Shown here in pieces: positions 26,305-39,948 of a stretch of DNA of 64,000 nucleotides (within the stretch, counting starts at the first letter, position 1; each line of letters opens with the position of its first letter). Source of the DNA: Arthrobacter roseus (GTDB lineage: Bacteria > Actinomycetota > Actinomycetes > Actinomycetales > Micrococcaceae); NCBI RefSeq assembly GCF_016907875.1, contig NZ_JAFBCU010000001.1, positions 1,054,001 to 1,118,000 of the forward strand, written 5' to 3'. The position numbers and the translations under genes were made by a program. Under the pieces are notes generated by a model. The model was given only the letters and a program-made list of their open reading frames with translations. It ran no database searches and was not told the origin of the DNA.

Positions 26305-26371
26305 TCAAACAGTGATACCCACCGAGGGCAGCGGTGTGGGCATCCCTGTGCCGGTTAGATCGCAAACGAAA

Positions 26372-26403
26372 ACACCACCACACCCTTGAGGATGTGGTGG
26401 TGT
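26372..26403 (-). terminator. Hairpin after the MarR-type gene
   Basis: ACACCACCACA and TGTGGTGGTGT form a perfect 11-bp stem with a 10-base loop, 65 bp after the end of the minus-strand regulator gene. Its stem resembles the hairpin at 12822-12849. Confidence 0.65.
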
Positions 26404-26468
26404 CGGTGGGGATGGTGGGGCTAGAGGCCGCGTGCTACGGAATGGGCTGCCGCTTATTTGTCTCCCGC

Positions 26469-26891
26469 TTATTTGTCACCCCAACCAAGGTTCCTTGCCA
26501 TCCGTTCGAGGACGGCAACAGTCGTCTCATAGTCCGCGTGAGTGACGCCCTCGGTAACTTGGGCCCGATTCTCTGCGACCACTTCACTGAGGACGGCCAT
26601 ACTGTTGCGGCCGAGTTCTTCCAGCGAGTACGTGCCATCAGATTGAGAGACCCAGCCGCTTTCGGTCAGTTCTTCCAGGTGCTCGGGAATGGTTTCTCCG
26701 CCCGGCAAACTGAGGAACGGCTCGAGCTCGGACTCCAACTCCGCTACCGTCGTCGGCCTCTCCGCCAACAGGTTCAGGAGCTGCCACTGCCGGCGAGTCA
26801 CGCCGTGCTCCTCCAACATGGACTCAAACCTCGAATCCACGAGTCCATCAACGAGCTTCAGCCAAAAACCAATAGGTCGATTGTGTTCCAT
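26469..26891 (-). CDS. MarR-type winged-helix regulator
   Basis: 140 aa. The wHTH core is VTRRQWQLLNLLAERPTTVAELESEL ... IPEHLEELTESGWVSQSDGTYSLEELGR, the layout of MarR proteins; flanking helices would form the dimer interface. An inverted repeat TTGTGT-N6-ACACAA (26881-26898) covers its own start codon, a good autoregulatory operator. The promoter/start region is duplicated exactly at 27667-27727. Ligand unknown. Confidence 0.8.
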   Translation of the reverse strand: MEHNRPIGFWLKLVDGLVDSRFESMLEEHGVTRRQWQLLNLLAERPTTVAELESELEPFLSLPGGETIPEHLEELTESGWVSQSDGTYSLEELGRNSMAVLSEVVAENRAQVTEGVTHADYETTVAVLERMARNLGWGDK

Positions 26892-26920
26892 GACACAACC
26901 CTACAAGGGACTGTTGTTCC
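26860..26920. repeat. 61-bp perfect direct repeat, copy 1 (regulator promoter and start)
   Basis: Identical over 61 bp to 27667-27727. It contains the first 11 codons of the MarR-type gene, its start codon, the TTGTGT/ACACAA palindrome and about 29 bp of upstream DNA. Confidence 0.9.
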
Positions 26921-26935
26921 TCAGACGCGTTACCG

Positions 26936-27649
26936 CTATCCCAAGGCGCCCATGAGTTGCTGGAAGGTGCTTCGATTACCCGTGTGCCCGTTGCTCGTCA
27001 TGGAATGAATCATGGCCCTGGTTAGCCACTCTTCGGGCAGCCAATCTCGTCCGATCAGTTGAGGGTGAGTAGGGCTGCACGTCGAGGCCCAGAGTAGGAA
27101 GACCAGTTCTGCCCAGTCTGAATTGAGCACCCACGACACGGGGCCCGTCGCCGATTGTCCCTGAATGTTCAATGACGAAGGGCCAGCGAGCGACGCCAAA
27201 TGGACGCTCGAGAAGTCCCAAGCGAGGATTGCGTGTGGAGTATGCATGTAAAACCCGTAGTTACCCACGTTCAACGTACCCTGATCAATTTGCATCCACT
27301 GTGGCTGGGCCATAGCCCGTGCTCTTGAACGGCGGGAAGCATTTCCCATGGCTCGTACTGCCGCGAAACCGACCATAGCCGGAAGTGCTCCCCGGCCAAC
27401 GGCAACGAAAGAGCTCGAGTTGTGCATGTAGTAGCCGTCTTCAGGGGCTCGCCACTCAAGAAGTTTGAAGGGTCCGTGAGCAAAGATCCTTTCGTCGGTG
27501 CCGCCAAACTGCATCGAGAACGGAACTGCTTTTGGAACGCGCAAATGCAGTTGCCCGCGCTTGAGTAGAACACCTATTTCCGCCGTAGCCCAAAGGGCGT
27601 CGTCCCTGGCCGTCCAGTCTTCATTGTCGGATTGTTTCTTATTTCTCAT
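26936..27649 (-). CDS. Hypothetical protein
   Basis: 237 aa from an ATG at 27649 (MRNKKQSDNEDW); the frame extends to 28090 but upstream codons overlap the neighbouring gene. I do not recognise a family. The protein is soluble-looking with one hydrophobic stretch (ALPAMVGFAAVRAMG) and Trp/His-rich segments (NVGNYGFYMHTPHAILAWDF, DWAELVFLLWAST). No Shine-Dalgarno precedes the ATG. It follows a 14-codon leader frame made by the duplicated MarR start, whose TGA ends four bases before this ATG, so translation may be coupled. Confidence 0.55.
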   Translation of the reverse strand: MRNKKQSDNEDWTARDDALWATAEIGVLLKRGQLHLRVPKAVPFSMQFGGTDERIFAHGPFKLLEWRAPEDGYYMHNSSSFVAVGRGALPAMVGFAAVRAMGNASRRSRARAMAQPQWMQIDQGTLNVGNYGFYMHTPHAILAWDFSSVHLASLAGPSSLNIQGQSATGPVSWVLNSDWAELVFLLWASTCSPTHPQLIGRDWLPEEWLTRAMIHSMTSNGHTGNRSTFQQLMGALG

Positions 27650-27653
27650 GGAG

Positions 27654-27698
27654 TCAACGTTGCCCAAGCCAAAAACCAATAGGTCGATTGTGTTCCAT
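27654..27698 (-). CDS. 14-codon leader ORF created by the duplicated regulator start
   Basis: MEHNRPIGFWL, the first 11 residues of the MarR-type protein, followed by GQR and TGA. The stop is at 27656-27654 and the ATG of the hypothetical gene starts at 27649. Too short to be a functional protein; a translational leader is more likely. Confidence 0.45.
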   Translation of the reverse strand: MEHNRPIGFWLGQR

Positions 27699-27727
27699 GA
27701 CACAACCCTACAAGGGACTGTTGTTCC
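27667..27727. repeat. 61-bp perfect direct repeat, copy 2
   Basis: Exact copy of 26860-26920, including the palindrome TTGTGT-N6-ACACAA (27688-27705), now placed upstream of the hypothetical gene at 26936-27649. Confidence 0.9.
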
Positions 27728-27811: not shown

Positions 27812-28564
27812 ATGAACCTGAACAGAGACGAACAGGCACGCAAAATGCAGCGGGCCGCAGAGTATCGTGCCGCGCGGAAAGCCGGCTGGGAGCCCGACGG
27901 CGAGGCAACCACTCCTGGTCCGGCGTCGCACTATGTGGGTGACGTTGCCGCCAAAGCTGAGGTCGCCGTTCAGGAGGCACAGGCCAGCGGGGCATTCGAC
28001 AACCTCGAATACGCCGGTAAACCCCTTCCGGAACTGACCCGGAGTCTGGACCCGGATTGGTGGGTCAAAGGGCTCATCGAGCGTGAACAACTCACAGGTC
28101 TTGCGCCGGCACCGTTCCTGCTGCGCAAAGAAGACGCCGAACTCGACGAACTCCTGGACAAGCAGTACTCAGAGGCGAGAGTCCGCGAAACCCTCGAAGA
28201 GTTCAACGCGCGCGTCATCGAAGCCCGCCGACAGCTACTGGGTGGCCCACCCGTGGTGACCAAGCTGCGCGACCTTGAGCAGGAACTCATCCGCTGGCGG
28301 GAAAGACGCGCAGCGCGCAACGCTGCAACCAGCCCGCCCGACCAAAAGAGCCCGGAACGTCGTCGCCCCTGGTGGCGGCGTCGTGCGTCGTGTGTAAACA
28401 ACAGGACCGCACGGAACCTGTCCCACTTTGAGCCGGCCGTCCGGCGAGTCGCGTCGCTGACTAGGGCAGATGCCCGCCCACGGATCCAAAGTGGGACGGA
28501 CGCCGTGGCCACAGACAATGGGACAATTGAGGAGTATAGTTTACGTGTAAACAACTCTGAGTGA
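27812..28564 (+). CDS. DUF1992 (DnaJ homologue subfamily C member 28-like domain) protein with an altered C-terminus
   Basis: 250 aa from the ATG at 27812 (GGAGGGG at 3-9 bases). Residues ~30-110 carry the DUF1992 pattern (KAEVAVQEAQASGAFDNLEYAGKPLP ... DPDWWVKGLIEREQL). A coiled, charged region follows (RETLEEFNARVIEARRQL; DLEQELIRWRERRAARN). From about residue 195 the sequence comes from an inserted ~100-bp repeat (28404-28505). An 11-bp direct repeat GTGTAAACAAC at 28392 and 28545 brackets 153 bp; removing it restores an in-frame end VNNSE. Function of DUF1992 is unknown. Confidence 0.8.
   Translation: MNLNRDEQARKMQRAAEYRAARKAGWEPDGEATTPGPASHYVGDVAAKAEVAVQEAQASGAFDNLEYAGKPLPELTRSLDPDWWVKGLIEREQLTGLAPAPFLLRKEDAELDELLDKQYSEARVRETLEEFNARVIEARRQLLGGPPVVTKLRDLEQELIRWRERRAARNAATSPPDQKSPERRRPWWRRRASCVNNRTARNLSHFEPAVRRVASLTRADARPRIQSGTDAVATDNGTIEEYSLRVNNSE
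28404..28505. repeat. ~100-bp inverted-repeat element, copy 1
   Basis: Core GTCCCACTTT ... CAAAGTGGGAC (28420-28497, 78 bp) with a central GGGC-AGAT-GCCC hairpin. About 85% like the copy at 28913-29012. Lies within the DUF1992 frame. No coding capacity of its own: a MITE-like or structured element. Confidence 0.75.
28539..28552. promoter_or_regulatory. Palindromic operator of the antitoxin gene
   Basis: GTTTAC-GT-GTAAAC, perfect 6-bp arms, overlaps TATAGT (a -10 candidate at 28535) and lies 20 bp before the antitoxin ATG. Autoregulation by the ribbon-helix-helix antitoxin is usual in this class. Confidence 0.55.
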
Positions 28565-28572
28565 GGTGCATG

Positions 28573-28794
28573 ATGACTGTTGCTGTGAGATTGACGGTTG
28601 AACAGCAAGACCGACTCGACGCTCTGGCCGCACGAACAGGGCGGTCCAGGTCGTTTTACGTCAAGGAGGCAATCGAGCAACATCTGGATGAGCTCGAAGA
28701 GCGGTACTGGGCCGACGAGGTTGTTGCGCGGTACGAAGCCTCCGACAAAAAGACCAGACCATGGAATGACGTCAAGGCAGAACCGGATCTGTGA
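28573..28794 (+). CDS. RelB/ParD-type ribbon-helix-helix antitoxin
   Basis: 73 aa from the ATG at 28573 (GAGG six bases before). N-terminal RHH fold: MTVAVRLTVEQQDRLDALAARTGRSRSFYVKEAIEQHLDELEERYWADEVV, with a charged C-terminal toxin-binding tail. Its stop overlaps the toxin GTG (GTGA). Because the toxin gene is truncated it is probably an orphan antitoxin. Confidence 0.85.
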   Translation: MTVAVRLTVEQQDRLDALAARTGRSRSFYVKEAIEQHLDELEERYWADEVVARYEASDKKTRPWNDVKAEPDL

Positions 28795-28967
28795 TTCCAT
28801 GGCAGTTCGAAACAACAGCCGACTTTGACAAGGATCTGAAGAAGCTCGATAAACCCGTGCGACGACGAGTTGTGGCTACCCTGGATGACATTCTTACTTT
28901 GAACGATCCTCGGGACCACGGAACCTGTCCCACTTTCAGGCTGCCATCCGGCAAGTCGCGCCGCTGA
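28791..28967 (+). pseudogene. RelE-type toxin truncated by a repeat element
   Basis: GTG start; VIPWQFETTADFDKDLKKLDKPVRRRVVATLDDI and LNDPRDHG match the first half of RelE/ParE toxins. From HG onward the frame reads into repeat copy 2 (28913) and stops at 28967 after 58 residues; RelE proteins are ~85-95 aa and need the C-terminal strands with the catalytic Arg/Tyr. No toxin tail is found after the element. Confidence 0.8.
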
Positions 28968-29012
28968 CTAGGGCTAATGCCCGCCAGCAGATCCAAAGTG
29001 GGACGGACGCCG
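28913..29012. repeat. ~100-bp inverted-repeat element, copy 2
   Basis: GTCCCACTTT ... CAAAGTGGGAC at 28927-29004 with the central GGGC-TAAT-GCCC hairpin. Stem bases are kept while the loop differs from copy 1. It interrupts the RelE-type toxin gene. Confidence 0.75.
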
Positions 29013-29121
29013 CGGAAGTCGGCGGCCAAGGGCTCCCACTCGACATCGCCGAGCGGTCCGCTCCTGGGAACCGCGAGTTCAAGCGCGCGGCACAGCGGGG
29101 GCCCCGACACTGGAGCAAGAC

Positions 29122-39638: not shown

Positions 39639-39641
39639 CGC

Positions 39642-39851
39642 CTAACTGGCCTTACTCAGAGCTGAGCCCTTGTGCATCGCCAAGTGATCGGTCTTATCGC
39701 TCTTGATCTCATATTGCGGTTCATCCTCGCTGCAGCGACGAGTGCGGCCCTTGAACTCGGTGTCTTTGGTATAGACCTTGGTGATGGTCCCCTCGACGTG
39801 GCCAGCCTCGGAGTTCCACCGGACGTGGTCGCCAACCTTGAAGTTACTCAA
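39642..39851 (-). CDS. DUF2945 (tudor-like) small protein
   Basis: 69 aa from a TTG at 39851, chosen because GAGGAG lies six bases before it; upstream frame is not credible. FKVGDHVRWNSEAGHVEGTITKVYTKDTEFKGRTRRCSEDEPQYEIKSDKTDHLAMHKGSAL is the full DUF2945 domain. Function unknown, often found with stress genes. Confidence 0.85.
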   Translation of the reverse strand: MSNFKVGDHVRWNSEAGHVEGTITKVYTKDTEFKGRTRRCSEDEPQYEIKSDKTDHLAMHKGSALSKAS

Positions 39852-39948
39852 CTGCTGCTCCTCTACATCGTGAAGTGCTCGTGGGAACAGTCTTGCACTG
39901 CGCCGAGCCACAGACCAGACTCGTGCTATCTAGAGTTAGGAATTCACG

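Follow-up and report, generated by a model that had tools for sequence, protein, structure and literature searches.

On the minus strand of the window (the whole stretch of 64,000 nucleotides of Arthrobacter roseus DNA analysed here), a gene encoding a 237-residue protein of an unannotated family, called X below, is preceded by an exact copy of the start region of another gene, which encodes a putative regulator. The initial annotation read this as the capture of a regulated promoter, with translational coupling between a short leader and X. How did X come to lie there, and is it now expressed from, and controlled through, the duplicated sequence?

Results

A duplicated gene start brackets a lone gene

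Positions 26860-26920 are identical to 27667-27727 over 61 bp, with a start-to-start spacing of 807, so that the exact duplication reported in the initial annotation is confirmed. It is the longest exact direct repeat within the window; no exact 61-bp repeat is expected by chance (computed), and the sequence occurs in two copies, with none further, in the complete single-contig genome of 3,076,990 bp. Each copy comprises 29 nt upstream of the ATG of the MarR-like gene, ten codons and another 2 nt; the "first 11 codons" originally assigned to the repeat were thus near enough, if not its exact extent. The palindrome TTGTGT-N6-ACACAA, also pointed out initially, is found in both copies. Reading leftwards (minus strand), the order is the start of a DNJC28-like gene, copy 2, a 746-bp insert, copy 1 and the remainder of the MarR-like gene, with the following features (G001 is the genome of the sister species compared below):

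27812 to 28564, plus strand: divergent DNJC28-like gene, originally adjacent to the MarR-like gene (sister comparison)
27667 to 27727, minus strand: copy 2 of the repeat, now in front of X, with the original upstream flank (DNJC28 side) kept (flank compared with G001)
27705 to 27710, minus strand: -10 box TAGGGT of the putative leaderless promoter, 6 nt before the leader ATG (conservation of TANNNT in relatives)
27688 to 27705, no strand assigned: palindrome TTGTGT-N6-ACACAA of copy 2, possible operator (sequence)
27654 to 27698, minus strand: 14-codon leader ORF (MEHNRPIGFWLGQR) plus TGA (sequence)
26921 to 27666, minus strand: inserted 746-bp fragment, lying between the copies and missing from G001
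26936 to 27649, minus strand: X, 237 aa, unannotated family, predicted PH-like fold (family searches, structure prediction)
26860 to 26920, minus strand: copy 1 of the repeat, with the original downstream flank (body of the MarR-like gene) kept (flank compared with G001)
26898 to 26903, minus strand: -10 box TAGGGT of the putative rebuilt promoter of the MarR-like gene (conservation of TANNNT in relatives)
26881 to 26898, no strand assigned: palindrome TTGTGT-N6-ACACAA of copy 1, possible operator (sequence)
26469 to 26891, minus strand: MarR-like winged-helix gene, 140 aa (below-cut-off winged-helix matches)
26371 to 26404, minus strand: strong intrinsic-terminator-like hairpin (z -5.1), 3' of the MarR-like gene

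X is the sole gene of the 746-bp insert, which consists of 17 nt, the 714 nt of X including its TAG stop codon, and 15 nt; gene and family searches found no known transposase or integrase in it. Between the end of X and the ATG of the MarR-like gene lie 44 nt, and the two genes are probably on one common message. The hairpin at 26404-26371, followed by T-rich sequence, closes the X/regulator unit and is likely the end of its transcript. The regulator had been described as "MarR-type". Winged-helix models do match it, but every one of them beneath its curated cut-off (MarR_2 with 22.9 bits against 27, HTH_27 with 20.9 against 22.2). Because these and related winged-helix models are reached only in this way, we call the protein MarR-like.

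The DNJC28 side of the locus holds a separate, 99-nt direct repeat (28410-28508 and 28917-29015; 88% identical, two copies in the genome). It has inverted ends (CCTGTCCCACTTTG / CAAAGTGGGACGG), its first copy sits between 11-bp direct repeats GTGTAAACAAC (28392 and 28545), and it has the look of a small non-autonomous element that duplicated its target. The C-terminal end of the DNJC28-like protein (28340-28564) appears lengthened by the first copy, the sister protein ending ...RRWWRRRRS. At 28561-28940 a ribbon-helix-helix antitoxin-like gene (77 aa) is followed by an apparent toxin frame shortened by the second copy; this segment is matched by a sister sequence (L058 of G001, 843-1280), to whose second half positions 39641-39862 of the window are 82% identical.

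X is found at unrelated sites in other genomes

Among 197 genomes of the family, X occurs in 16 and the regulator in 92, at different places. The neighbourhoods of X are not common to different genera, and a search for one shared across other genera found none. Ten relatives of X (from Arthrobacter, Citricoccus, Micrococcus, Nostocoides and others) align over most of their length, with the invariant residues kept in the X of the window; towards the nearest relative dN is 0.28 and dS is saturated. By these measures X is intact, and its family is under purifying selection. X has no significant match in Pfam, NCBIfam, PHROG or PADLOC, and nothing suggests a restriction-modification role for it. 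A match to ERG2_Sigma1R was weak, far below the cut-off, and was rejected. Searches for phage, plasmid and viral matches to X found none beyond three distant matches of streptomycete-type plasmids.

The AlphaFold2 model of X (pLDDT 78) has strands at residues 55-67 and 117-177 and a helix at 180-191; the stretch that separates the first two strands (~71-115) is partly hydrophobic and poorly predicted. Its best match in a second structural comparison is the Ran-binding PH-like domain 2y8f_B (VIA Z 10.6, rmsd 3.1 over 98 residues), and the best Foldseek E value is 1.2e-3. The PH-like superfold is defined by a seven-stranded barrel capped by a C-terminal helix, and the model of X resembles a PH-like barrel with a capping helix, a tentative fold that says nothing of function.

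No direct repeats of at least 14 nt bracket X in 15 other X loci; among ten further X loci, four have isolated 14-16-nt matches 3.3-4.9 kb apart, which we took as chance. One other event can be read from the genomes of two related species in another genus, G114, which has X (L051, 7704-8429), and G055 (L084), which is without X at the same site, the flanks being 86-88% identical. There X arrived as a bare gene in place of ~57 bp of intergenic sequence and left no target duplication. With replacement in G114 and duplication in the window, the two events left different scars and have none in common. A search of 121 genomes for the empty counterpart of the G163 site found none with both flanks. 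GC3 of X, at 0.62, is below that of its two direct neighbours (0.68) and of other genes nearby (0.71-0.77); together with the patchy positions, this fits horizontal gain of a lone gene.

A sister species has the site without X

The initial annotation had suggested a comparison with relatives, and it is this comparison that dates the repeat. In the sister species, one other species of the genus (with one genome per species, the empty site is one between species, not strains), the DNJC28-like gene adjoins the MarR-like gene, with a single copy of the repeat sequence and no X; the regulator protein is 68% identical between the two. As judged by their flanks, copy 2 of the window carries the flank of the divergent gene and copy 1 runs into the body of the regulator. 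The sister differs at 8 of the 61 positions, and at all eight both copies show the state of the window; the duplication therefore postdates the separation of the two species.

The repeat, the empty site in the sister and the unrelated sites of X in relatives are matters of observation. As to the history behind them, we consider it probable that a bare 746-bp X fragment entered the MarR-like gene at codon 11 once the species had split, duplicating 61 bp of target, and that this left X behind the promoter. A fragment with little besides X would have inserted at codon 11, the 61 bp of target would have been duplicated around it, and the regulator would have been rebuilt intact downstream while X was placed behind the original promoter. 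The regulator gene came out whole because the duplicated block holds the putative leaderless promoter (see below), the start codon and the first ten codons, and X lies behind the original promoter region because copy 2 keeps the original upstream flank. The duplication itself may have come about through a staggered break that was filled in and then end-joined, or through a circle bearing the 61 bp and a single crossover. The host encodes Ku, so that end joining at a staggered break would be possible.

Taken by itself, the circle amounts to a different history, a Campbell-type integration in which X lay on a small circle already bearing the 61-bp regulator sequence and entered by a single crossover, with no target duplication as such. 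The product would look identical, and insertion of circles has been proposed to explain how Arabidopsis genes with genic direct repeats on either side were transposed (PMC2869330). It requires, however, a donor in which X already stood beside this regulator start, and X and the regulator are adjacent nowhere else among the 197 genomes of the family; nor did contig searches find a plasmid, phage or viral contig that carries X beside the regulator start. We consider this history improbable. Far less credence goes to an old arrangement, in which the common ancestor already had X between the two copies and recombination between these repeats later removed X from the sister. Such a deletion would recreate the arrangement of the sister exactly, but ancestral copies would need gene conversion, as the two are identical and yet differ from the sister at 8 of 61 positions, and X is absent beside the regulator in all other genera examined.

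Insertion of a bare fragment could also be thought of as one instance of something general, namely that a dedicated, undescribed process, which is no transposon, phage or plasmid, moves each X gene bare and on its own, with the 61-bp duplication as one of its products. If true, this would make X a minimal mobile gene of the Micrococcaceae; we think it very improbable. A mobile-element origin of the repeat was rejected, as there is no third genomic copy, X matches no phage, plasmid or virus beyond the three distant plasmid hits, and no direct repeats of at least 14 nt bracket it in the 15 other loci. An assembly artefact is hardly credible: 61 bp is a possible k-mer overlap length, but the genome is a single contig with a completeness of 99.99%, X is unique in it, with its frame intact and the family-invariant residues kept, and an overlap artefact does not make a unique gene with the overlap on either side.

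A putative leaderless promoter in the duplicated block

Transcripts from leaderless promoters have the start codon as their 5' end; the main determinant of these promoters in M. tuberculosis is TANNNT, and no -35 consensus was found (PMC3898074). Among relatives of the regulator, TANNNT precedes the start codon at a spacing of exactly 6 nt in 28 of 29; for all ATGs of these sequences the corresponding figure is 2.3%, although any spacing of 5-8 was accepted there. Both copies of the repeat in the window read TAGGGT-TGTGTC-ATG. Judging by this conservation, the duplicated block has a leaderless promoter, whose transcript would be expected to start at the start codon of the leader, and the presence of the pattern in both copies suggests that the 61 bp probably suffice to start both transcription and translation. 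Of the regulated-promoter duplication proposed at the outset, the promoter part thus held, while its leaderless nature had been missed. A search for sigma-70 promoters with an E. coli-type consensus found none around the locus. The MarR-like gene has a leaderless-type promoter with a spacing of exactly 6 in nearly all Micrococcaceae genomes examined (L007-L034); one group of these has in common a TTGAC ~8-9 nt upstream of the -10 box, perhaps an operator.

X probably depends on the captured promoter

The relatives of X normally have leaderless-type starts as well, with TANNNT 5-7 nt before the start codon in 11 of 12; this box is absent for the X of the window. Because of this, the lack of a Shine-Dalgarno sequence before the ATG of X, correctly described in the initial annotation, is uninformative, and the apparent loss of the gene's own TANNNT box is the better evidence of dependence on a captured promoter. 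What stands in its place is degenerate (AACGTT at a spacing of 6 or CAACGT at a spacing of 7, compared with TAACGT-N6-ATG in the relative at L036), and the insertion junction lies just a few bases upstream. Thus, X probably depends on the promoter of copy 2. Capture is further supported by the sister site without X and by the original upstream flank of copy 2.

The degenerate -10 of X might still be working. A remnant of the leaderless promoter that belonged to X, now joined to new upstream sequence, would then drive its expression, and the leader ORF would play no part, an alternative that concerns expression only. It draws on the relatives of X, such as that at L036, which have a leaderless-type promoter at exactly this place, and on M. 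tuberculosis, where TANNNT is found at 73% of primary starts and about a quarter do without (PMC3898074). However, it is the first T of the box that is missing, kept in 11 of 12 relatives, and a complete TANNNT box with the right spacing lies ~49 nt upstream in the same direction. We regard a residual promoter as unlikely, though not negligible.

With transcription from copy 2, which we prefer, the transcript would start at the leader ATG, ribosomes would read the 14 codons and then restart at the ATG of X, and the message would continue through the regulator gene to the terminator at 26404-26371. As first proposed, the ATG of the second copy opens 14 codons (27698-27654), whose TGA ends four nt before the ATG of X at 27649 (TGA-CTCC-ATG). 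Stop/start geometry such as this favours reinitiation (review PMC12548453), and translational coupling from the leader to X is plausible. The close spacing is not evidence of selection or design, because any phase would give coupling or fusion; the other two frames across the junction end in a TGA that overlaps the ATG of X (CCATGAG) or run into an in-frame fusion. The spacing is nearly forced, dictated by the start sequence of X. RNA structure hiding the start of X was not found, the fold of the start region being no stronger than those of shuffles.

Possible control by the regulator

The initial annotation also placed X under the MarR-like protein. MarR-type genes are commonly autoregulated, and the regulator may repress the X message through the palindrome at the start site, a step weaker than those proposed for the transcript and the leader. 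In the loci analysed, 23% of 80-nt stretches around an ATG contain a 6+6 palindrome with a spacer of up to 12, so that the palindrome by itself is not significant. Visual inspection of the aligned regulator starts does not show it in other genera, and it is conserved only in the sister. There, a run of 37 identical bases common to both species spans the palindrome (p 0.006, column shuffling) and exceeds the expectation from local identity; the same run also covers the -10 box and the first codons, and half of the palindrome is coding in the sister. That the MarR-like protein regulates X is, in our estimation, a little short of an even chance.

Discussion

The locus may show a step of regulatory rewiring in a fresh state, in which a foreign gene gained, through one insertion, an upstream ORF and a promoter that looks complete. 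The host regulator was left intact because the duplicated stretch happened to span the promoter and the start codon. Leaderless promoters would ease such capture, because a few tens of bp carry what the start of both transcription and translation needs.

In its promoters the locus resembles actinobacterial leaderless genes, which have TANNNT 6 nt before the start codon (PMC3898074). A MarR-type gene, crtR of Corynebacterium glutamicum, is reported to be leaderless, as the regulator here probably is, and negatively autoregulated (PMC5401885); the protein and the operator are different ones, and autoregulation in our case is a candidate only. Leaderless upstream ORFs, as a review recounts them, can be short and deliver ribosomes to the next gene (Shell et al. 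2015, via PMC12548453), which would be the role of the leader; unlike those, it was born by duplicating the first codons of another gene. The same review outlines how mycobacterial MIRUs, as mobile sequences at a start codon, couple a short ORF to the gene behind (PMC12548453). MIRUs, in its account, are repeated sequences, and the gene coupled to them is that of the host at the site of insertion, whereas X is unique, came to lie within a start region and would itself be the gene that is coupled.

As regards the movement of the gene, transposed genes of Arabidopsis are likewise single genes at new sites, with non-transposon direct repeats that match the empty target (PMC2869330). Those are eukaryotic, and their authors prefer an origin in tandem duplications from which circles were excised and then reinserted; of this there is no sign here. 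The closer likeness is to insertions with long target duplication, reported from Helicobacter pylori and frequent with restriction-modification genes, whose duplications are summarized as lengthy and of no fixed size, on the order of 100 bp (Nobusato et al. 2000, Gene 259:99, via PMC1643837, PMC3874152, PMC3031569). The pattern is defined by a direct repeat of the target of tens to hundreds of bp and by no known transposase or integrase, restriction-modification cargo being typical and not structural. The event described here matches this pattern: a transposase-free gene inside another gene, a direct repeat derived from the target, and the empty site of a close relative. It differs from the Helicobacter pylori cases, as these are summarized, in its host, an actinobacterium, in its cargo, a single gene whose family is unannotated, and in that the duplicated stretch comprises promoter and start codon, so that both genes keep a promoter. 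The route of gene movement is itself known; the new details are the cargo and a start-region target whose duplication leaves a promoter before both genes. They widen the range of insertions with long target duplication to cargo other than restriction-modification genes and to hosts other than Helicobacter.
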